Shown: positions 1 to 9,051 of the stretch, piece after piece
Position numbering within the stretch: position 1 is the stretch's first letter
Layout of the letters: each line of letters begins with the position of its first letter
Source of the DNA: Peptococcaceae bacterium BRH_c8a
Lineage (GTDB): Bacteria > Bacillota > Desulfotomaculia > Desulfotomaculales > Desulfallaceae
NCBI GenBank assembly: GCA_000961575.1
Contig: LADP01000003.1
Span: forward strand, 1-64,000
DNA: 64,000 bases
Reading direction: 5' to 3'
Program-made: the position numbers and the translations under genes
The notes under the pieces: model-generated
Seen by the model: the letters and a program-made list of their open reading frames with translations, nothing else
Told to the model about the DNA's origin: nothing
The model's database searches: none

Positions 1-406
1 CAGCTTCCCGGGCGGCACGGCAGATTTCTTCGTTGATTTCTATTAAAGCTTTGTTGCCAAAACGTTTACGAAAGTGGACCATAAGGGAAGGGTCAAACGG
101 TGCTCGGTTCTGGTATTCCCTAAGGCCGATGAAGTACTGAAGGTAGGGGTTCTCAGTGATCTGCTCCACTGTTTCACGGTCGGTGAAACCGCATCTTTCT
201 TTGATGATTAGTGCACCGAGGGCCATCCGGACGGGTTTGGCCTTCTGACCGCGGTGGCTAGTAAAACGGTTGGCATAGCGTTCTTCGATACTTTTCCATG
301 GAATAAGCTTAGCTAGTTTTACCCAGCGGTTATCGGCTCTTAATTTGCCTTCAAAGGGCAGAATGAATTCTTCGAGATAGTATTGGTTTTCTATTTTTTG
401 GAACAT
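1..406 (-). mobile_element. IS5-type transposase, 5' part (runs off the window)
   Basis: Reading leftward from an ATG at 404-406 gives 135 uninterrupted codons that run off the left edge. The product begins MFQKIENQYYLEEFILPFEG and continues with the DUF772-like N-terminal domain of IS5/IS1182-type DDE transposases, for example the stretches ALGALIIKERCGFTD and FDPSLMVHFRKRFG. The catalytic DDE residues would be encoded outside the window, so completeness of the element cannot be judged. A Shine-Dalgarno-like GGAGGGAC lies just upstream of the ATG. The outer end of the element is probably within 440-560 but cannot be fixed without the other terminus. Confidence 0.8.
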
Positions 407-1368
407 GTTTGTCCCTCCAGGTGCACGGTTTTTGCATTATTTACCGCGTTTTCCATGCATCTTATTTCGACAAATATGCTCCTAAATCCTTGATTTTATT
501 GGGTTTTTGTTTCGTTCAGCAAGCCCTAATTAATCTATATTAAGCGAACTTCCAAACTATTTTATTTAACAGCCTGCTGGACGTTATAAGGTGGCAGTAA
601 CACTAGACGCCACACATAATAAAAAAGTAAACCCACTATACTACTTATTATTGAATAAAAAGAATTTAATTTTTGCAGATTAAGTAGAATTATTGCGGAA
701 ATATCTTCGGCGAGCTATCAAAACTCTCCGCTTCGCTCCAACCGCAAGCGGCAGCTACAGGGTAGTTAGCGCTTAAGGGGCATTTCCCCTTCCCTCGGGG
801 AGACCGCCGAGTCTTTAATTGCCGGTACTAATACACTTTGCTTTTGATTCTGATTCTGATTCTTCCGTTCGCCCAGGCTTGTTCCAAACAATTTCGTCTA
901 ATGACCAGTCTCTGATTGGGCCTGACCATCCCTTAGATGGCGTAATTTAGCTTCTTCGACCGGTTTGTCCGATTTTTTTATTTAAACAGTACACATATTA
1001 ATCTATTAAAAAGGAACTACTATATTTCGGCTTCCGGGAATTATCTTTTTCGCATCGAATAAAGATTTTTAATTTTATTCGACTTTTTTCTACAATATTC
1101 CTGCAAAAATTTGCATTAAGCTAGAAATTAGTAAAGCTATTTCGTCGTTCCGGTCTAACTTTAACAGTCAAGGATAAAAATATAGATCAATTGTTTTGCC
1201 AGGAACTCGATAAGCACTTCTACAGCGCTAAGTAAATTGCCAGGTTAGGTAATAAAGATGTTAATACCGACATGTTCGGTAGGGCGCACTCTGTTTACAC
1301 TGTGCAACATTGAAAACTAACGGGGAGAAATTTTAAATTAAAGTCCCGATGTTTTTCTTATTTAAAGT
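407..1368. other. AT-rich intergenic stretch without a recognisable gene
   Basis: About 960 bases separate the transposase from the EamA gene. The stretch is AT-rich except for a GC-rich island around 705-830 and an odd patch at 850-980. On the minus strand the latter gives short open stretches interrupted by stops, such as DWSLDEIVWNKPGRTEESES. These look like decayed coding sequence, but I cannot assign a family. A 6-bp inverted repeat, TACCGA/TCGGTA, lies at 1265-1281. I see no convincing RNA gene. Confidence 0.4.
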
Positions 1369-1397
1369 AAAAAGACAGGAATTTTCCTGTCTTTTTT
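1369..1397 (-). terminator. Rho-independent terminator of the EamA gene
   Basis: The inverted repeat AAAAAGACAGGAA/TTCCTGTCTTTTT directly follows the stop of the transporter gene. It has U-rich flanks on both strands, so it could work bidirectionally. Confidence 0.8.
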
Positions 1398-1402
1398 ACA
1401 CT

Positions 1403-2299
1403 CTAATTTAATTTTTTCTTTTTCTGGACGGTTACAATCAATACTCCTAACAAAATTAGTGAGCCGCCAACAAAGAAATTCAAATCCAAATGTTCACTGA
1501 GTAATAACCATCCCAAAAAGGAACCGACTAATGGTTGGAAAAAGAAAAACAGCGAACCAATTCCAGTATCCATCATTTCCATTCCCTTGTTCCACAGAAA
1601 GAAAGCAGCAGCCGTTGATACTATTCCCAAATATAGAACTCCAAGGATGATTGAAGAATTATTAAAGAGAATGTTGTTTGTTTGAATCTCCCATAACATG
1701 AATGGTGTTGTAAAAACTAATGCAAATAAAATTGCATAAGTTGTTATAGTTAGTGAGGAATAGTTGTAAGATGCAACCTTAACATATACAGATAGTAAAG
1801 CCCATGTTATCGCAGCACCTACTAAAATGACACTTCCCCAAAAGTAAGTTCCAAGGGTTGGACTCCATCCAACAACAATTGCAACACCAATAGTGGCTAA
1901 TAAAAGAGAGAGAATCTTACGTATAGTAAGAGTTTCCTTCAAGACGAATCGAGCAAATATCACAATAAAGGCTGGTGTTGCCGAAGTGATTAGAGCACCC
2001 GTATGGGCATCCGAAAGTTTTGTTCCAATAAATTGAAAAGAAATCGAAACAAAATATCCGATAAATCCAATCCAGCCTAATAGTAGCCAATCCTTCTTTT
2101 CAAGTTTGGTACAATTTTTTGTTTTACGTTGAGATATTTTTAAAATTGCATACAAAACAGCAAACGCAATAACATATCGTAACCAAACAAGAGTAAATGG
2201 GGGAATAAAATCGAGTACATATTTACTCACAACATACATACCGCCCCAAATACTAGCTGCTAAAGATAAACATATTGCTCCTAATATCGTATTTCCCAT
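1403..2299 (-). CDS. EamA/DMT-superfamily transporter
   Basis: This 298-residue, highly hydrophobic protein has about ten predicted membrane segments arranged as two tandem EamA domains (roughly residues 8-145 and 155-290), as in drug/metabolite exporters. The N-terminal segment SIWGGMYVVSKYVLDFIPPF and the repeat-2 motif STAAAFFLWNKGME are typical of the family. Members export amino acids, metabolites or drugs; the substrate here cannot be read from sequence. The start at 2297-2299 follows a GGAGGT Shine-Dalgarno at 2308-2313. The gene is much more AT-rich than the housekeeping genes to its right. Its unusual leader (2320-2480) has a short peptide and interleaved hairpins, which suggests induction by translation stress or an inhibitor. 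Confidence 0.85.
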   Translation of the reverse strand: MGNTILGAICLSLAASIWGGMYVVSKYVLDFIPPFTLVWLRYVIAFAVLYAILKISQRKTKNCTKLEKKDWLLLGWIGFIGYFVSISFQFIGTKLSDAHTGALITSATPAFIVIFARFVLKETLTIRKILSLLLATIGVAIVVGWSPTLGTYFWGSVILVGAAITWALLSVYVKVASYNYSSLTITTYAILFALVFTTPFMLWEIQTNNILFNNSSIILGVLYLGIVSTAAAFFLWNKGMEMMDTGIGSLFFFFQPLVGSFLGWLLLSEHLDLNFFVGGSLILLGVLIVTVQKKKKLN

Positions 2300-2325
2300 T
2301 ATTTATTACCTCCGCCTTATTTAAT

Positions 2326-2401
2326 GAGATTTTATAAGCAAATCTCTAAGACGGGGCAGTTTTAGAACTTAGCTGTTCATCCCCGTCCTAGGAATGAACA
2401 G
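2326..2401 (-). promoter_or_regulatory. Leader with interleaved hairpins upstream of the EamA gene (putative attenuator)
   Basis: Read along the minus-strand transcript, stem A pairs CTGTTCAT (2401-2394) with ATGAACAG (2380-2373). Stem B pairs GACGGGG (2387-2381) with CCCCGTC (2356-2350). The arms interleave, so A and B exclude each other. Stem C pairs GAGATTT (2346-2340) with AAATCTC (2332-2326), ahead of the ribosome-binding site. The 5' arm of stem A lies inside the leader-peptide codons, so ribosome position could choose the fold. None of the hairpins has a clear U-tract and none obviously hides the Shine-Dalgarno, so the output mechanism is open. Confidence 0.6.
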
Positions 2402-2438
2402 TGGGTTGGTCATTTTCAAACAAGTTAAAGTAATACAT
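2388..2438 (-). CDS. Putative 16-residue leader peptide of the EamA gene
   Basis: An ATG at 2436-2438 is preceded at 7-nt spacing by AAAGGAG (2446-2452) and opens a 16-codon frame, MYYFNLFENDQPTVHS, ending in TAG. It lies between a promoter-like TGTTATAAT and the transporter start. The last codons overlap the 5' arm of a hairpin that competes with a downstream hairpin. This is the layout of leader peptides controlling drug-resistance genes by ribosome stalling. Function is inferred from architecture; I do not recognise the peptide. Confidence 0.55.
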   Translation of the reverse strand: MYYFNLFENDQPTVHS

Positions 2439-2471
2439 TTGAATTCTCCTTTCTAAAAATAATATACATTA

Positions 2472-2479
2472 ATTATAAC
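2472..2479 (-). promoter_or_regulatory. Extended -10 promoter element for the EamA transcript
   Basis: On the minus strand TATAAT is preceded by TGT, an extended -10 (TGNTATAAT). It lies about 35 nt upstream of the leader-peptide start. The -35 region is weak. Confidence 0.5.
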
Positions 2480-2783
2480 ATAAAAAATTAAAGCGGGCTT
2501 AATTAACATGCTGCACAGTAAACATTTATAGGCTGCAATTATCAAAGCAAGACAAGACTCCTTATAGCTGTGCTTTGCAGGTAAAATGTTCAGCAAGCTG
2601 ATTTCTCATTTTGTTATGGTCATTGTTAATTATGTTTAATAATTTAGGTTTTGGAAGGAAATTTGAACGTATGTAAAGAATATGTTCGGAATTAATAGCC
2701 TTGAAACGTGTTATTATTCTGGGTGAACATAACAATGATTATGCGGCACAACTAATAAAATCCCAGACTTTCACAGATAAACA
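2480..2783. other. AT-rich spacer before the sigma-K fragment
   Basis: About 300 bases with no gene, recognisable RNA or terminator. The DNA stays AT-rich up to roughly 2780. The change to more GC-rich sequence coincides with the sigma-K-like reading frame. Confidence 0.4.
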
Positions 2784-3068
2784 GTGGAAGGCAATGAGAT
2801 TCACTTCATGGACGTATTAAGCACCGATGCAGAGGCTGTGGCTGAACTGGTGGCCAAGAATCTGGACTGTGAGCAGTTGTGGCGCAAACTAAAACACCTT
2901 ACTCCGCAAGAGAGGAATGTTCTGGTACTGCGTTACGGGCTCCGCGGCAAGAAACGCCGGACACAGAAAGAAATCGCTAAAAATATGGGTATTTCCCGCT
3001 CCTACGTAAGCAGGATTGAAAAGAGAGCCATTGACCGCCTGTCGGAGCAATTCTTGGCGGAGGCTTAA
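2784..3068 (+). CDS. C-terminal half of sporulation sigma-K (SpoIIIC-like fragment)
   Basis: The 94-residue product is sigma-70 regions 3 to 4.2 only. Region 4.2 reads KEIAKNMGISRSYVSRIEKR, the helix-turn-helix wording typical of sigma-K; sigma-E usually has ISQSYISRLEKR. The frame opens at GTG 2784 with EGNEI, which in intact sigma-K/sigma-E follows DPIGTDK. An in-frame TAA lies two codons upstream and region 2 is absent. AATGA at 2793-2797 falls in the same codons as the 5-bp skin crossover core in Bacillus subtilis sigK. It may therefore be the 3' half of a sigK interrupted by an element, or a dead duplicate. It cannot work as a complete sigma factor in this arrangement. Confidence 0.75.
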   Translation: MEGNEIHFMDVLSTDAEAVAELVAKNLDCEQLWRKLKHLTPQERNVLVLRYGLRGKKRRTQKEIAKNMGISRSYVSRIEKRAIDRLSEQFLAEA

Positions 3069-3145
3069 CGATGGTTACGTTTATCTGCAGCATACTGATG
3101 ATTAAATTGCTTTTCAACAAGTTGCGAAAGATTCCCAATTGGCGT

Positions 3146-3186
3146 AAATGTTTAGCCCGGCCGTTTTAGGCCGGGCTAAACATTTT
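3146..3186. terminator. Strong bidirectional terminator between the sigma-K fragment and hcp
   Basis: A perfect 17-bp stem (3146-3162 with 3169-3185) has core TTTAGCCCGGCC/GGCCGGGCTAAA, a 6-nt loop and A/T-rich flanks on both sides. It lies between convergent genes. Confidence 0.85.
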
Positions 3187-3220
3187 AGGACTAACTAAAA
3201 CTTACTTCTTTTGAGAGGTA

Positions 3221-4504
3221 TTAACCCAGGACAGCCTTGATGTCTTCTTCCGGTGTGGTGATAAGCTGCAGGTTATAATTCTCTTGTATGACTGCCAGCA
3301 CGTTGGGGGTCAGGAACGCCGGGGCCGTGGGGCCGATGCGGATATTTTTGATCCCCAGATGCAGCAGAGTGAACAGAATGGCTACCGCTTTTTGTTCGAA
3401 CCACGACAGCACCAAGGTGAGCGGTAGGTCGTTTACGCCGCAGTTGAATACTTTGGACAGCGCCACGGCCACCTGGATGGCTGAATAGGCGTTATTGCAC
3501 TGACCCATATCTAAGAGGCGCGGGATACCGTCGATATCGCCCAGATCCAGGTCGTTAAAACGGTACTTGCCGCAGCCCAGGGTAATGACTACGCAATCCT
3601 TGGGCACTTGTTTGACGAAGTCGGTGAAGTAACTGCGGGATGACCGGGAGCCTTCACAGCCGCCCACCAGGAAGAAGTGGCGAATCTTACCGGCTTTTAC
3701 CGCATCGACAATCTTATCGGCGATGGAGAGCACGAAATTGTGGTGGAAACCGGTGGTTAGTGTGCCGCCTTGTTTCTCTGTGGCGGGCGGCAACGACTTG
3801 GCCTTTTCAACCACCGCGCTGAAATCACGGTCGGCGATGTGTGTCACACCGGGAAGACGGGCAATGCCACAGGTAAACATACGGTCTTTATAGGATTCCT
3901 TGGGGATCAGCACACAGTTAGTGGTGCCCAGGATGGCGCCTGGAAACTCGTCAAACTCTTTCTTCTGGTTCTGCCACGCTGAGCCATAATTTCCCACCAG
4001 GTTGGGGAACTTGTTAAGTAACGGATAGGCATGGGCCGGCAGCATTTCACCGTGGGTGTACACGTTTACTCCGGCGGCCTGGGCTTGCTTTAGAAGCTCG
4101 TGCAGATCCAGCAAGTCGTGGCCGGTAATCAGGATGGCCGGGCCGGGCTTAAGGCCGGTGGACACCTGGGTGGGCATTGGAGAACCGAACCGGTTAACGT
4201 TGGCCTTGTCAAGCAATTCCATGGCCCGGTAATTCATTTCACCACATTGGAGAACTTTTTCCACGTGGTTACCCAAGTCGAAATTTACGTTGGTCAGGGT
4301 GCTAAACAGCGCGTCATGCATAAAGGCGTCTACCTGCTCATCACGCTCGCCCAGTTCCCTGGCGTGGAAAGCATAGGCGGCTACACCTTTTAGACCGATA
4401 ATCAGTGCGTCCTGCAAACTAGCGATATCCTCGTTCTTGCCGCAAACTCCCACTTTGGTGCAGCCGGTACCGCCGGCTGTCTGTTCACATTGGTAACAAA
4501 ACAT
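3221..4504 (-). CDS. hcp: Hydroxylamine reductase / hybrid-cluster protein, class III
   Basis: Hcp carries a cubane and a hybrid Fe-S-O cluster. It reduces hydroxylamine and acts as an NO reductase in nitrosative stress; it is cytoplasmic. The N terminus MFCYQCEQTAGGTGCTKVGV has the Cys set for the proximal cluster (C3, C6, C15, C21). Downstream, GGCEGSR, TLGCGKYRF and DMGQCNNAYSAI carry hybrid-cluster ligands. At 427 residues it is about 110-120 shorter than class I/II proteins. The shortening is in the helical N-terminal domain, which is the class III form of archaea and thermophilic anaerobes. The start at 4504 has GGAGG at good spacing; an ATG at 4511 is too close to it. The gene is monocistronic. 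Confidence 0.93.
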   Translation of the reverse strand: MFCYQCEQTAGGTGCTKVGVCGKNEDIASLQDALIIGLKGVAAYAFHARELGERDEQVDAFMHDALFSTLTNVNFDLGNHVEKVLQCGEMNYRAMELLDKANVNRFGSPMPTQVSTGLKPGPAILITGHDLLDLHELLKQAQAAGVNVYTHGEMLPAHAYPLLNKFPNLVGNYGSAWQNQKKEFDEFPGAILGTTNCVLIPKESYKDRMFTCGIARLPGVTHIADRDFSAVVEKAKSLPPATEKQGGTLTTGFHHNFVLSIADKIVDAVKAGKIRHFFLVGGCEGSRSSRSYFTDFVKQVPKDCVVITLGCGKYRFNDLDLGDIDGIPRLLDMGQCNNAYSAIQVAVALSKVFNCGVNDLPLTLVLSWFEQKAVAILFTLLHLGIKNIRIGPTAPAFLTPNVLAVIQENYNLQLITTPEEDIKAVLG

Positions 4505-4618
4505 TATTCATGGCCTCCTTTTGTATTGTAAATATGTTATTCCTCTTTGGTTACTTATAGCTTACTGAATATTTAACCGGCTATCTATGATGCATCTCAC
4601 ACTTTGAATTCGAAGTTC

Positions 4619-4637
4619 GTCACAACAAATTAGTGAC
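4619..4637. promoter_or_regulatory. Inverted repeat in the hcp/homocysteine-operon divergent region
   Basis: GTCAC (4619-4623) and GTGAC (4633-4637) flank a 9-nt AT-rich spacer upstream of hcp. Just before it lies the near-palindrome ACTTTGAATTCGAAGT. Either could be an operator for a CRP/FNR-type regulator, a common controller of hcp, but the match is only to symmetry and not to a specific consensus. Confidence 0.25.
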
Positions 4638-4686
4638 ATTCTGTAGGTGTGTCCCCTTTCCCAAAAAGTGGTTACCAGCTATGCTG

Positions 4687-4716
4687 TTGACAAACAGACC
4701 AGACAATTGATAAACT
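4687..4716 (+). promoter_or_regulatory. Promoter ahead of the SAM riboswitch
   Basis: TTGACA at 4687-4692 and TAAACT at 4711-4716 are separated by 18 nt. Transcription would begin some 30 nt before the aptamer. The -35 is perfect and the -10 is moderate. Confidence 0.55.
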
Positions 4717-4751
4717 ATAAAAGTGTATTGTACACAACTAATTAAAAAGTG

Positions 4752-4909
4752 CTCTTATCCGGAGTGGTGGAGGGACTGGCCCTGTGAAGCCCGGCAACCG
4801 CCCCGCCTATGGCGGAGGTATGGTGCTAATTCCTGCAGAAGTAATAACTTCTGGCAGATAAGAGGTGACGTATCTAAAACCTCTTCTGTACCCTGAAGGG
4901 GTTTTATTT
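4752..4909 (+). promoter_or_regulatory. SAM-I (S-box) riboswitch with intrinsic terminator
   Basis: The aptamer starts with CTCTTATC (4752-4759) and closes with GATAAGAG (4857-4864), forming P1. The conserved core includes GGTGGAGGGA, CCCTGTGAAGCCCGGCAACC and TGGTGCTAATTCC. The expression platform has a terminator hairpin, AAAACCTCTT with AAGGGGTTTT (4876-4905), followed by a T-rich tail. The 3' side of P1 plus GT (AAGAGGT) can pair instead with ACCTCTT (4879-4885) as antiterminator. SAM binding should stabilise P1 and switch off the downstream homocysteine genes. Confidence 0.95.
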
Positions 4910-4944
4910 GTCGGAGCGGAGCACAAAACCAATGGAGGTGCTGT

Positions 4945-6141
4945 ATGGCAACGGAAAGAACATTCCGGGAAATTAATGAACGCATCAAGCAGGGTAAAGC
5001 GGTGGTAATTACCGCTGAAGAACTGGTGACCCTGGTCAAAGAAAAAGGCGTGAGCTATGCCACGTCGGAGGTCGACGTGGTGACCACCGGAACATTTGGA
5101 CCCATGTGCTCTTCCGGCGCTTTTTTAAACCTGGGGCATTCCAAACCCAGAATTAAGATGCAGAAAGTATGGTTGAACGGAGTACCTGCTTATTCAGGTA
5201 TCGCTGCCGTCGACGCCTACATCGGAGCCACCGAAGTTAGGGAAGACGACCCGCTGAACAGTGACTATCCGGGCGAGTTTCGGTACGGCGGCGGGCACGT
5301 AATTCAGGATTTGGTGGCTGGCAAGAAAGTAAATTTGCGAACCACCGGTTATGGCACCGACTGTTACCCGCGCCGGGAATTTGAAGCCCAAATTACCCTG
5401 GACGACATTAACGAGGCAATCCTGTTTAACCCGCGTAACGCTTATCAGAATTATAGCTGCGCTGTTAACCCAAGCTCCAAAACCATCCATACCTACATGG
5501 GGGTACTTAAAAGCAACATGCAAAACGCCCATTATTCAACGTCGGGACAGTTAAGCCCGCTGCTTAAGGATCCGTGGTTTAAGACTATCGGTATTGGAAC
5601 CCGCATATTCCTGGGTGGTAGTGTGGGTTATGTGGCCTGGAACGGCACCCAGCACTTCCCTTCCTTTATGAAGGATGAAAGCGGGCAAGATTTAAGCCCG
5701 GCTGGGGCTACCCTATCGGTAATCGGTGATCTGAAAAAAATGAGTCCCCGTTGGCTGGCCGGTGCCAGCATGCTGGGTTACGGTGCCAGTCTATCTGTTG
5801 GCCTGGGCATCCCTATCCCCATCCTGAACGAGGACGTTTGCCGATTTGCTGCCGCTGGTGACGATGAACTGTTCGCTCCCATTATAGACTACAGCCAGGC
5901 TTTTCCCGAGCGTGAGTCCGGTAATCTCGGTCACGTGAGCTATGCTGAATTAAAGAGCGGCACCATCAAAATTAACGGCCGGGAAGTGACCACGGCACCG
6001 ATGTCCAGTTACCCGCGGGCCAGGGAAATTGCAGGACTTTTAAAAACCTGGATCCAAAAGGGTGAGTTCCTGCTGGGTGAGCCGGTAGAACTGTTGCCCG
6101 ATGCCAACGCAGGAATCAACGCTAATGCGTTGCAGGGTTAA
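4945..6141 (+). CDS. Homocysteine biosynthesis protein (DUF39/COG1900)
   Basis: This 398-residue protein belongs to the DUF39 family. In methanogens and other anaerobes the family is needed to make homocysteine from aspartate semialdehyde and sulfide, without the usual homoserine-activation route. Visible family stretches are TTGTFGPMCSSGAFLNLGHS with its Cys near residue 56, CAVNPSSKTIHTYMG and GVGLG-like glycine-rich segments after residue 270. The start at 4945 has GGAGG six bases upstream. It is the first gene after a SAM-I riboswitch, which independently points to methionine/homocysteine metabolism. The next gene, a NIL-ferredoxin, is its usual partner and probable electron donor. Confidence 0.9.
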   Translation: MATERTFREINERIKQGKAVVITAEELVTLVKEKGVSYATSEVDVVTTGTFGPMCSSGAFLNLGHSKPRIKMQKVWLNGVPAYSGIAAVDAYIGATEVREDDPLNSDYPGEFRYGGGHVIQDLVAGKKVNLRTTGYGTDCYPRREFEAQITLDDINEAILFNPRNAYQNYSCAVNPSSKTIHTYMGVLKSNMQNAHYSTSGQLSPLLKDPWFKTIGIGTRIFLGGSVGYVAWNGTQHFPSFMKDESGQDLSPAGATLSVIGDLKKMSPRWLAGASMLGYGASLSVGLGIPIPILNEDVCRFAAAGDDELFAPIIDYSQAFPERESGNLGHVSYAELKSGTIKINGREVTTAPMSSYPRAREIAGLLKTWIQKGEFLLGEPVELLPDANAGINANALQG

Positions 6142-6185
6142 TAAAGAAGACCTGTGCGAAGATTGATTAAAAGGAGTGTGGGAAA

Positions 6186-6587
6186 ATGGCCCCTAAAAAG
6201 GTAGTGCTGCGATTTAGCGCCGACATATCGGATCAGCCCATGATTTACAAGCTGGTAAAGGACTATAATCTGGTTATTAATATACTGAAGGCCAATGTAA
6301 ACCCCCAAATGGAAGGCACTATGGTGATGGACATCAGCGGTGAGAACATCGAAGCGGGTATTGAATACCTAAGAAGCGTCGGAGTTGGTGTGCAGTCCCT
6401 GACCGAGGAAATCATTCAGAACGAAGATAAATGCGTAAGCTGCGGTTCCTGCACTGCTATCTGCCCTTCAGGGGCGCTGTTCATCGAACGGCCGGACATG
6501 ATAGTGCGCTTTGACAGTGACCGCTGTGTGGTTTGTCACCTGTGTCTAAAAGCGTGTCCCATGCGGGCCATGGAGGTTCGTTTTTGA
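6186..6587 (+). CDS. NIL-domain 4Fe-4S ferredoxin, homocysteine synthesis partner
   Basis: The 133-residue protein has an N-terminal NIL domain (about residues 1-75), a ligand-binding fold also found in methionine ABC transporters. It is followed by two 4Fe-4S motifs: CVSCGSCTAICPSGALF near 80-96 and CVVCHLCLKACP near 112-123. Fusions of this type sit beside DUF39 proteins in anaerobes and are required with them for homocysteine formation, presumably supplying electrons for reductive sulfur transfer. The start has AAGGAG at good spacing. It shares the riboswitch-controlled transcript and overlaps the next gene by 4 nt. Confidence 0.9.
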   Translation: MAPKKVVLRFSADISDQPMIYKLVKDYNLVINILKANVNPQMEGTMVMDISGENIEAGIEYLRSVGVGVQSLTEEIIQNEDKCVSCGSCTAICPSGALFIERPDMIVRFDSDRCVVCHLCLKACPMRAMEVRF

Positions 6588-7327
6588 ACGAATATGTAAA
6601 TCGTGCTTACCGGCTGTTGCACCGGCAGGATGACCTGGTTTTTTTTCAGCTGCTAGTTAAGGAAACCGATCTGGATATCGGCATCCCACGTGCCAGGTTG
6701 AACCAGGAACTTTTTGACGGCGCCAGGCAGGCGGTTATGGCAGTACGGTCACAGTTGGAACAGTATATCTTAAAAGATGAAAATTTTAGGCGCGCTTTAG
6801 AACCGCGTACGCCCCAACCCGGTGCGCCGGCCATCGTCCTAAGTATGGCGATGGCCGGTCAGGCCGCTGGTACCGGGCCCATGGCAGCCGTGGCCGGGGC
6901 TATTGCCCAGCATATCGGTGAATACCTGGCCCGGCGTACCCGGGAAGTAATCGTGGAAAACGGCGGCGACATCTTCATGCGTACTGAACGGGTGCGCCGG
7001 ATCGGTATCTTTGCCGGCCCTTCTACTTTTACCAACCGCCTGGCCCTGGAAATTGAACCGCACCGTACACCCCTGGGCATTTGTACCTCATCCGGTACTG
7101 TAGGCCATTCCCTCAGTCTGGGCTGTGCCGATGCGATGGTGGTACTGGCCCCGTCAGCGGCGTTGGCCGACGCAGTAGCCACGGCAGCGGGCAACCTGGT
7201 ACATAACGAGTCGGACTTGCAGTCAGCGGTGGATTTTGCCCTGGGAGTCAAGTCGGTAACCGGTGCGCTGGCGATTAAGAATGATAAACTGGCTGCCGCC
7301 GGCAACATTAAGTTGGCACCCATGTAA
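6584..7327 (+). CDS. UPF0280/COG2122 family protein (ApbE-related), homocysteine operon
   Basis: I chose the TTG at 6584-6586, which overlaps the ferredoxin stop (TTGA) and has GGAGG 7 nt upstream. Longer readings into the ferredoxin gene lack a ribosome-binding site. The 247-residue protein matches UPF0280, a family distantly related to ApbE flavin transferases, with glycine-rich stretches MAMAGQAAGTGPMAAVAGAI and GICTSSGTVGHSLSLGCADA. COG2122 members have been linked genetically to homocysteine synthesis together with DUF39, and position as third gene of a SAM-riboswitch operon supports that. The reaction it performs is unknown to me. Confidence 0.85.
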   Translation: MNEYVNRAYRLLHRQDDLVFFQLLVKETDLDIGIPRARLNQELFDGARQAVMAVRSQLEQYILKDENFRRALEPRTPQPGAPAIVLSMAMAGQAAGTGPMAAVAGAIAQHIGEYLARRTREVIVENGGDIFMRTERVRRIGIFAGPSTFTNRLALEIEPHRTPLGICTSSGTVGHSLSLGCADAMVVLAPSAALADAVATAAGNLVHNESDLQSAVDFALGVKSVTGALAIKNDKLAAAGNIKLAPM

Positions 7328-7328
7328 T

Positions 7329-7363
7329 GCGTTCAAGTCGGGGACGGTTCTTGACTTGAACGC
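7329..7363. repeat. 11-bp inverted repeat after the homocysteine operon
   Basis: GCGTTCAAGTC (7329-7339) and GACTTGAACGC (7353-7363) flank GGGGACGGTTCTT. Sequences of this wording resemble short REP-like palindromes dispersed in related Clostridia. No poly-U tail follows, so it is unlikely to be the terminator. Confidence 0.5.
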
Positions 7364-7386
7364 TCCAACTCGAAAGGCCCAAAGCT

Positions 7387-7420
7387 AAAGCGGACAAGAT
7401 TTTACTTGTCCGCTTTATTT
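7387..7420 (+). terminator. Terminator of the homocysteine operon
   Basis: AAAGCGGACAAG/CTTGTCCGCTTT (7387-7398 with 7405-7416) is a perfect 12-bp stem followed by ATTTAT. A/T flanks also allow it to stop the convergent acyl-CoA synthetase transcript. Confidence 0.85.
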
Positions 7421-7440
7421 ATCATGAGACAGATTAAATA

Positions 7441-9051
7441 CTAATTTACCTTGCGGTCGCGCCCGGCCCATTCCTTATCACGTAGTTTGTATTTCATAAT
7501 TTTGCCGGTGGACGTTTTGGGTAGTTCACCAAATTCAATAGCCTTGGGCACCTTGAAGCGGGCCATGTTTTCCCGGCAGTAGTTGATGATGTCTTCGGCA
7601 GTGGGGTTGGTGCCGGGTTTGGGTACTATGAAAGCCTTGGCTACCTCGCCCCATTTGGGATCCGGTATGGATATGACTGCCACTTCGTTTACATCCGGGT
7701 GGTTGTAAATAATGTTCTCCACCTCAACGGTGGAAATATTCTCGCCGCCGCTGATGATAATATCCTTCATGCGATCCTTAATTTCTACATAGCCGTTGGG
7801 GTGAACCACCGCCAAGTCGCCACTGTGGAACCAACCACCCCGGAAAGCTTCATCGCTGGATTCAGGTTGCTTGTAATAACCAAGCATCACGTTATTGCCG
7901 CGCATAACTATTTCACCCATGGTTTCGCCGTCCCAGGCCACCGGTGCCATGCTGGCGGGATCGACAACGTCCATGTAATGGGCCGTAATATAGGGAACTC
8001 CCTGGCGGGCCTTAATTTTAGCCCTTTCGTCAGCCGACAAGCTATCCCATTGGGGCTGCCACTCGCAGATGCTGTGCGGCCCGTAAACTTCGGTTAAACC
8101 GTAAACCTGGGTTACATTGGCCCCGATTACTTCCATATTCTTAATTATCGCCGGTGCCGGCGGTGCCCCCGCCGTTATTACATTCAACTGGCGGGTCATC
8201 TTTACTTCTTTGGCGCCGGGGAAAGTGGACATCGCTATTAATACCGTGGGGGCAGCACACAGGTGGGAGATACCTTCCTCTTCCACCAAGCGGTAGATTT
8301 CTTCCGGAACCACCTTGCGCAGGCACACATGGGTACCCCCTACTGCTGTTACACCCCAGGTGAAGCACCACCCGTTGCAGTGGAACATGGGCAGGGTCCA
8401 CAGGTAAACGGATTGCGAATTCATACCACATTCCAGCGCTTCGCCAAGGGCATTAAGGTAAGCCCCCCGGTGGTGATACATAACCCCCTTGGGCAGCCCG
8501 GTAGTGCCGCTGGTGTAGTTAATAGTGGCCACCTGGTACTCATCGTCCACATCTATTTCCACCGGCTCCTCGGAACCGCCGGCGATGAATTCTTCGTAAT
8601 CCGGCCCTGCCAGAGGTTTTTCGGCACTGATATCGCATATGTTAACAATATTGGTTACATTGGTTAACTCATTAATAATTGGCTTGATTAGCCCGGCAAA
8701 TTCGTTATCTACAAAAAGGGCCTTGGCGTCGGAATGATTAATAATGTAAGCAATTTCTTTTGCTACCAAGCGGATGTTAATACTAACCAGCGTAGCACCG
8801 ATCATCGGTACCGCGTAATGAGCTTCCAACATTGGCGGCGTGTTGGGGCAGATAAAGGCAACCTTATCACCTTTACCGATACCCGCATTTTTCAAAGCAT
8901 TGGCCAGGCGGTTAACCCGGTTATAAAACTCCCGGTAACTATATCGCTGATCATTGTATACAACCGCTTCCTTATCACTGTAAGTCAAAGCGCTGCGGGG
9001 TAAAAATTTGACCGGCGACAATACATCATAGTTAACACTTCTTTTCGACAT
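7441..9051 (-). CDS. Acyl-CoA synthetase (AMP-binding, medium/long-chain type)
   Basis: The enzyme activates a carboxylic acid with ATP to the acyl-AMP and then the CoA thioester. Signature motifs are the P-loop-like TINYTSGTTGLPKGV, the substrate/AMP motif GLTEVYG, GWFHSGD with its ribose-binding Asp, and the C-terminal catalytic Lys in KTSTGKIMKYKLR. The ATG at 9049-9051 (MSKRSVNYDV) follows AGGGAGG at good spacing; a longer reading to 9207 would add 52 unsupported residues. At 536 residues it has normal family length. The long strings of small hydrophobics around FHCNGWCFTWGV fit fatty or aromatic acyl substrates, but substrate cannot be fixed. It is monocistronic, as expected for an anaerobe that oxidises fatty or aromatic acids. 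Confidence 0.88.
   Translation of the reverse strand: MSKRSVNYDVLSPVKFLPRSALTYSDKEAVVYNDQRYSYREFYNRVNRLANALKNAGIGKGDKVAFICPNTPPMLEAHYAVPMIGATLVSINIRLVAKEIAYIINHSDAKALFVDNEFAGLIKPIINELTNVTNIVNICDISAEKPLAGPDYEEFIAGGSEEPVEIDVDDEYQVATINYTSGTTGLPKGVMYHHRGAYLNALGEALECGMNSQSVYLWTLPMFHCNGWCFTWGVTAVGGTHVCLRKVVPEEIYRLVEEEGISHLCAAPTVLIAMSTFPGAKEVKMTRQLNVITAGAPPAPAIIKNMEVIGANVTQVYGLTEVYGPHSICEWQPQWDSLSADERAKIKARQGVPYITAHYMDVVDPASMAPVAWDGETMGEIVMRGNNVMLGYYKQPESSDEAFRGGWFHSGDLAVVHPNGYVEIKDRMKDIIISGGENISTVEVENIIYNHPDVNEVAVISIPDPKWGEVAKAFIVPKPGTNPTAEDIINYCRENMARFKVPKAIEFGELPKTSTGKIMKYKLRDKEWAGRDRKVN

Follow-up and report, generated by a model that had tools for sequence, protein, structure and literature searches.

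The EamA-type transporter gene near the start of contig LADP01000003.1 of Peptococcaceae bacterium BRH_c8a is preceded by a short leader ORF, which very probably is a translational attenuator of the ermC type: stalling of the ribosome at a conserved F-E-x-D-x-P peptide core would switch on the exporter. Control by the leader, one half of the original prediction for this locus, is strongly supported, as peptide and stems are conserved, the stems covary, and the switch occurs in the computations just where the peptide motif is. Three traits of an ermC-type leader were found in the sequence and in the computations. The leader ORF has its own Shine-Dalgarno sequence (SD) and overlaps the first helix; computed folds and covariation indicate helices that exclude one another, with the main-gene SD buried in one of them; and in the computed average over the leaders, this SD is freed by a ribosome at the motif but stays buried when the ribosome has reached the stop codon.

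Layout of the Leader Locus

The window analysed is a stretch of 64,000 nt (positions 1 to 64,000 of the contig), and all elements of the leader locus lie on its minus strand (Table 1). The original prediction had named an extended -10 promoter just upstream, a 16-codon leader ORF with its own SD, a stem A overlapping this ORF and interleaved with a stem B, and a stem C ahead of the transporter SD. All of these are present in the sequence or its fold, but helix 3:4, the key helix that buries the EamA SD, was omitted from that list. Stems A and B, for which no individual coordinates had been given, were equated with helices 1:2 and 2:3, and stem C with the hairpin capping helix 3:4. About 75 nt separate the leader ORF from the EamA SD. 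Most stretches preceding the homologous leaders are SD-like, and extended -10-like elements were found upstream of 20 out of 38 leaders, whereas 200 mononucleotide shuffles gave 3.2 on average and never more than 8. A consensus promoter scan, which additionally requires a -35 hexamer, listed none at the position of the extended -10 element of the window.

Two other features of the window were recorded on the plus strand. A 94-aa ORF, divergent from the leader, has sigma-70 region 4 as its best Pfam match and is either a stand-alone gene or a remnant. A SAM riboswitch (88.9 bits, cut-off 44.4) precedes a 398-aa ORF.

Table 1. Features of the leader locus and of selected other loci. Window coordinates count from the first letter of the 64,000-nt stretch.
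Locus	Feature	Position	Strand	Basis
Window	Extended -10 promoter element TGTTATAAT	2480-2472	minus	read from sequence
Window	Leader SD AAGGAG	2451-2446	minus	sequence
Window	Leader ORF MYYFNLFENDQPTVHS, 16 codons and TAG	2438-2388	minus	sequence, homologous leaders
Window	FENDQP codons (F-E-x-D-x-P core), predicted stall site	2403-2420	minus	codon tables, pattern match, computed switch point
Window	Helix 1:2 (stem A)	2401-2390 with 2384-2373	minus	fold, arm-swap duplex test
Window	Helix 2:3 (stem B), CUAGGACGGGG with CCCCGUCUUAG	2391-2381 with 2356-2346	minus	fold, covariation
Window	Helix 3:4, GCCCCGUCUUA with UAAGGCGGAGGU	roughly 2357-2347 with 2319-2308	minus	fold, covariation
Window	Stem C, GAGAUUU with AAAUCUC, hairpin capping helix 3:4	2346-2340 with 2332-2326	minus	fold
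Window	EamA SD GGAGG	2313-2309	minus	sequence
Window	EamA/DMT transporter gene, 298 aa, start ATG at 2299	1403-2299	minus	ORF, Pfam
Window	94-aa ORF	2784-3068	plus	Pfam
Window	SAM riboswitch	4752-4864	plus	
Window	398-aa ORF	4945-6141		
L013	Adenylyltransferase-like ORF	3897-4760		
L037	Adenylyltransferase-like ORF	3015-3962		
L045	Adenylyltransferase-like ORF	3229-4125		

Distribution of the Leader

The best 80 of 535 relatives of the EamA protein, with 50-75% identity, were kept as homologues. An intact and correctly placed leader was found at 38 of these 80 by script and by reading; 35 were taken from the script listing, and L062, L067, and L082 were found by reading. The other 42 homologues have no intact adjacent leader, and among them are one displaced leader and two remnants. 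Covariance model R1, with which the leaders beyond the first set were found, was built from 39 leaders and includes helix 2:3. When run over these 42 loci and L029, it recovered the L029 leader, the displaced leader of L031 (Clostridium ljungdahlii, 60 bits), and the remnants in L014 (1900-1993) and L023 (1873-1993), where the RNA arms are partly kept and the peptide is lost. The leader of L031 (146-305) lies about 1.7 kb upstream of the EamA gene, which runs from 2001 onward; in between is a transposase-like ORF of approximately 377 aa (at about 702-1830), presumably TnpB-like. In the sister species Clostridium ragsdalei (L032), the leader adjoins the EamA gene. On a tree built from the window protein and its 80 homologues, presence or absence of the leader changes at least 17 times (mean of 27 for shuffled labels), and 11 of the 17 changes are forced by well-supported branches. 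The pattern would fit an old leader that was often lost; gains may also have occurred.

Genomes were then searched with R1 in four sets, of which the Bacilli-, Negativicutes-, and Clostridia-type sets carry class labels inferred from named loci in the genomes searched. In the Bacilli-type set, 61 matches were obtained in 58 of 398 genomes at E ≤ 0.01. Fifty-one of them were inspected (27 new, 4 already known, and 20 later ones; the remaining 10 all have E > 0.002), and 45 precede an EamA gene, including the degenerate L232, while six look like chance. For L173 and L177, both among the 27 new ones, the script had chosen another frame, and the EamA gene was recognised by reading the sequence downstream. 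Negativicutes-type matches were present in 12 of 150 genomes, and all 12 precede EamA (11 were read, and L149 is identical with the L086 leader). The class of the window genome itself gave matches in 6 of 113 genomes: three intact leaders, one remnant (L197), and two chance matches; L194 is the leader of L062. In the Clostridia-type set, with matches in 13 of 291 genomes, the known leader of C. ragsdalei is real, and none of the four that were read among the other 12 is such a leader. Sharing of the leader with unrelated genes was rejected, as the inspected matches away from EamA genes look like chance inside other sequence (L195, L196, L198-L201, L153-L156, L160, L236, and L238-L242).

Two EamA genes are present in the Alicyclobacillus genome of L081, and a leader precedes each of them. 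At L227, leader MFWTMLFENDVPTVFSCF stands before a divergent DMT gene whose product is only 23% identical to the window protein; judging by this sequence, the leader type may be portable. On plasmids, 175 records match the EamA protein, and three of the 25 matches listed were examined: Priestia megaterium pBM500 and Bacillus badius pPM400 have the leader together with the gene, and the EamA match on Selenomonas plasmid pSRC2 has no leader. Searching with a loose DNA pattern for FENDxP lacked specificity: of 23 matches in the 113 own-class genomes, only those in G000 and G022 are leaders; at phylum level the pattern gave raw matches in 67 of 398 genomes.

RNA Fold and Covariation of the Helices

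The minus-strand leader RNA of the window folds better than 200 out of 200 dinucleotide shuffles (z -4.27), and the minus-strand RNA of 2296-2401 reaches a z of -5.29. No unusual folding was found on the plus strand (z -0.74). Four arms form three mutually exclusive helices, numbered as in ermC, where 1:2 and 3:4 alternate with 2:3. Helix 1:2 pairs the leader codons after Pro with the region 3' of the stop codon. Helix 2:3, the anti-sequestor, has 11 pairs and contains the leader stop codon, and helix 3:4 buries the EamA SD and encloses stem C. Trimming of the window RNA from its 5' end separated these states. As long as arm 1 is present, the minimum-energy fold is 1:2 with 3:4; once it is trimmed off, the 2:3 fold appears and four of the five bases of the EamA SD are unpaired; after removal of arms 1 and 2, the 3:4 fold returns. 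Since the minus strand of 1500-4500 yielded no terminator-like site, the control is read as translational, and transcription attenuation was rejected on the same ground. A known RNA family was also rejected, as Rfam gave no match at the leader either in window positions 1-8000 (E up to 1) or in 11 related loci (E up to 0.5).

Helices 3:4 and 2:3 are backed by covariation. In alignment A1, 80.5% of the cells of helix 3:4 are paired, with a covariation score of 0.280 as against 0.226 in shuffles, and 78.9% of the cells of helix 2:3, with 0.376 as against 0.246. In alignment A2, helix 2:3 has 79.9% of cells paired and again 0.376, as against 0.255. None of 500 shuffles reached the observed scores of the two helices. 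When only pairs changed on both sides were counted, the observed values were reached by 73 of 500 shuffles for helix 3:4, and for helix 2:3 by 40 (A1) and 127 (A2) of 500. Helix 1:2 is the weakest: pairing was found in 56.4% of its cells, and the structure itself is outscored by a slide of -1, which was put down to misalignment.

Compared with their own dinucleotide shuffles, 28 of 38 leaders pair better at p < 0.05 in helix 3:4, 32 in helix 2:3, and 17 in helix 1:2. When arms were swapped between species in 74 leaders, all three helices became weaker, and 0 of 5000 permutations were as good for each. In both of these tests helix 3:4 is favoured, because arm 3 was picked as the best partner of the leader's own SD. 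Cutting the arms at fixed A1 columns removes this bias, and with the 38 leaders cut in this way again 0 of 5000 permutations were as good for each helix; as the sequences are related, the permutation counts are not independent probabilities. The leader's own arms paired better than the mean of the swaps in 34 of 38 leaders for helix 3:4, in 35 for 2:3, and in 32 for 1:2. A chance origin of the ORF or the stems was rejected on the conservation of the leader together with this covariation. Lack of conservation had been named beforehand as what would speak against the leader; in the aligned homologues, peptide and stems recur and covary.

Peptide Core

Across 74 leaders, the core residues are L in 66, F in 68, E in 74, N in 67, D in 73, and P in 74, where the invariance of E and P, though not the freedom of third codon positions, is partly imposed by the search pattern. 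The residue before P is Q in 37 leaders, V in 33, R in two, and T in two. Variants FEIDHP, FECDVP, FEYDVP, and FEHDVP were added by later leaders, so that the nearly constant part is F-E-x-D-x-P; the core of L009 deviates (LEKYRP). Pro is encoded by CCA in 25, CCT in 23, CCC in 20, and CCG in six of the 74. The core is under selection at the amino acid level, with third codon positions free and residues fixed. Three to six residues follow Pro before the stop codon. The listed leaders have 12-18 residues, with start codons chosen by script, and Pro can come as early as residue 8. A ribosome at the predicted stall site would carry a nascent chain of about 8-13 residues, which resembles drug-dependent leader peptides and is too short for secretion monitors.

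This conservation bears on whether the RNA could be a metabolite riboswitch that binds its ligand directly, with the ORF a chance find or a passenger and the peptide irrelevant. Covarying helices and a sequestered SD would fit an expression platform as well, and the ykkC subtype 2d orphan riboswitch is already known to control EamA genes, according to the available part of the source (PMC7266159). Nevertheless, direct ligand binding by the RNA is very improbable because conservation is at the protein level, with third codon positions free, and because Rfam gave no match at the leader of the window (E up to 1) or in 11 related loci (E up to 0.5). The peptide-less remnants also score lower with R1 (26 bits in L014 and 32 in L023, compared with 74 for an intact leader), a drop that comes partly from the missing sequence itself.

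Computed Switch Point

A ribosome covering the RNA to 15 nt past the P site was placed on each leader codon by codon, and the accessibility of the EamA SD in the remaining RNA was computed. Averaged over 74 leaders, accessibility is 0.41 when the P site holds the conserved Pro codon and 0.42 when it holds the preceding one, compared with 0.14 five codons before Pro and 0.11 five codons after. The maximum falls at Pro or one codon before in 48 of the 74 (edge +15). The first 38 leaders gave 0.19 five codons before Pro, 0.48 one codon before, and 0.44 at Pro, with values down to 0.16-0.17 near the stop codon. A test set of 36 leaders (42 further loci without L210, which was lost by the script, and without five repeats of leaders already used) had the same peak, with 0.36 and 0.39 as against 0.06-0.08 far from the motif. 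With shuffled spacers this peak was absent and accessibility rose slowly from 0.24 to 0.40. At the peak itself, real leaders are not more open than shuffled ones (0.36-0.39 vs. 0.32-0.35); the difference is that real leaders are shut elsewhere. The computed switch is unclear in several leaders, such as L009, L081, L177, L214, and L218.

The position of the peak depends on the assumed edge of the ribosome. With edges of +12, +15, and +18, it shifted in the 74 leaders from Pro and the next codon to the two codons before Pro; an edge of +17 was measured by inverse toeprinting, as given in the available part of PMC6238534. Taken across the assumed edges, the best position for opening the SD is D-x-P, within about a codon. 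Among the arguments for the peptide as the sensor, this agreement between the peptide motif and the RNA switch point in the models is the strongest.

With the ribosome at the stop codon (k = +4 to +6), the SD is predicted to be buried on average. It argues against constitutive coupling, whereby the leader merely helps ribosomes to reach EamA or to reinitiate there and senses nothing. Short leaders have been hypothesised to raise expression by reinitiation (PMC4833913, available part), but for this purpose the conserved FExDxP core would be needless as well, and such coupling is very improbable.

A peak near Pro would also fit a ribosome waiting for an uncharged tRNA at or near the Pro codon. 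In such an amino acid starvation attenuator, an empty codon of the E-N-D-Q-P stretch would be sensed and the transporter would serve amino acid balance. Codons for Glu, Asn, Asp, Gln, and Pro do lie side by side in roughly half of the leader cores (Q in 37 of 74), and the EamA protein matches the amino acid/amine DMT model 2A78, although below its cut-off. Against this, the features of trp- or his-type attenuators are absent: there is no regulating codon run, and the minus strand of 1500-4500 is free of terminator-like sites. At the Q position V, R, T, or H also occur, and in place of N there can be K, Y, W, C, H, I, or Q; what remains is F, E, D, and P, and all four Pro codons are used. Since EamA proteins are mostly exporters, transport would go in the wrong direction. 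Sensing of starvation is less likely because a codon run is lacking and the x positions vary freely, and overall it is judged unlikely.

Proposed Mechanism

For the attenuator of the ermC type, the folds suggest the following course. At rest, arm 1, made of the leader codons after Pro, would pair with arm 2, which would leave arm 3 free to pair with arm 4 containing the EamA SD, and the exporter would stay untranslated. Helix 3:4 would still form with a ribosome that reads through to the stop codon. Under induction, arm 1 would be covered by a ribosome that slows or stalls while the D-Q-P codons of FENDQP occupy its P site; arm 2 would then pair with arm 3, the SD would be freed, and EamA would be made. 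We infer that the ribosome stalls at FExDxP with the nascent FExDxP chain as part of the sensor, and that some small molecule induces the leader through its action on the ribosome, with EamA exporting this inducer or a related molecule. The other half of the original prediction, that the EamA protein exports an antibiotic or toxic metabolite that stalls ribosomes, is plausible, and the role is regarded as putative.

Only tentatively, a wider reading may be offered: FExDxP would be an orphan nascent-chain sensor, shared by several classes of Bacillota, in which a short ribosome-bound peptide responds to one undescribed small molecule in the tunnel or at the peptidyl-transferase centre and switches on a dedicated DMT exporter. 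The molecule may be a common antibiotic or an endogenous toxic metabolite. If this is true, the leader before the divergent DMT gene of L227 would represent a portable sensor module. Motifs of drug-dependent stalling include XPX under erythromycin (PMC13410324, available part), which by analogy would fit a Pro near the P site and serves as a lead. From arrest peptides whose inducers are known, it has been learned how drugs and metabolites act inside the ribosome. The FExDxP leader is short and conserved over a wide range, and a single exporter gene offers a simple read-out, so its inducer should be directly screenable; finding it would give this group of transporters a substrate and ribosome studies a new nascent-chain motif.

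EamA Protein and Gene Neighbourhood

The window protein matches Pfam EamA (PF00892) with 159.6 bits (cut-off 28.2). All six NCBIfam DMT families listed for the protein (2A78, YddG, YedA, and others) are below their curated cut-offs, and 5i20 (E 0.0033) is the only solved chain at E ≤ 0.01. The neighbourhood of 37 leader-bearing loci held nothing conserved as a clue to the substrate: apart from DMT genes, no family occurs in more than six of the 37. An ORF that we take to be aminoglycoside 6-adenylyltransferase-like is located downstream of leader and EamA in three of these loci, from two genera (Table 1).

In the Anoxybacillaceae loci L009, L019, L020, L022, L026, L034, L044, and L046, a second DMT-like gene is directly 3' of EamA on the same strand, possibly in an operon with it. 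The Rfam sRNA BsrC (80.7 bits, cut-off 38) was recorded in L180 at 1098-1185, upstream of leader and EamA.

Comparison with Known Systems

Secretion monitors such as SecM, MifM, and VemP rely on a nascent chain that is long and includes a segment for export or membrane insertion; the FExDxP leaders, with their 12-18 residues, are unlike them. In a text search of the literature, which covered few subscription papers, FENDQP, FENDVP, LFENDQ, and LFENDV occurred in no paper, and nothing was found that links EamA/DMT genes to a leader peptide. EamA, leader peptide, and ribosome were mentioned together in a drug-resistance review only, as far as its text was available. Two papers on discovery of ncRNAs (including PMC8632094) list other uORF candidates, and EamA is not named in the available main text.

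One of these candidates, uORFC-6-1 upstream of hflX in Bacillales, likewise combines a short uORF of conserved peptide with covarying RNA and was found by comparative genomics, but it has an Arg-Leu-Arg motif and another gene, hflX (PMC8632094, available text). The ykkC subtype 2d orphan riboswitch also regulates EamA transporter genes, and its ligand is given as undetermined there; it differs in being a riboswitch, with a leader peptide unmentioned in the available part of the source (PMC7266159), and Rfam has no ykkC match at the FExDxP leader.

Closer in mode of action are leaders read by the ribosome. In bmrBCD of Bacillus subtilis, a drug transporter of a Gram-positive bacterium is under ribosome-mediated control by a leader (PMC4191407, available part), as is predicted for the FExDxP case with its putative substrate. 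Control of bmrBCD is transcriptional and its target is an ABC transporter, whereas the FExDxP leader targets an SD, and a scan of the minus strand of 1500-4500 gave no terminator-like site. The toiL uORF of Escherichia coli topAI-yjhQ, when stalled by ribosome-targeting antibiotics, opens a buried ribosome-binding site, similar to what is predicted for a stall at FExDxP. As described in the available part of PMC12121999, toiL differs by proposed stalls at different positions and by Rho-dependent termination, while the FExDxP switch is tuned to one motif.

The nearest relative in design is ermC/ErmCL, where the available parts of the sources describe a short leader ORF, a main-gene SD buried at rest, and stall-induced refolding that frees it (PMC13410324, PMC5118997). 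The FExDxP leader has in common with it the leader ORF, the buried SD, and a predicted stall-induced refolding. Unlike ermC, it has the FExDxP peptide core, a DMT exporter instead of an rRNA methylase as its target, and a distribution over several classes of Bacillota, where most of the leaders were read on chromosomes or genome contigs. The proposed mode of action is a known one, that of ermC, and the peptide family, the target gene, and the spread appear to be new.
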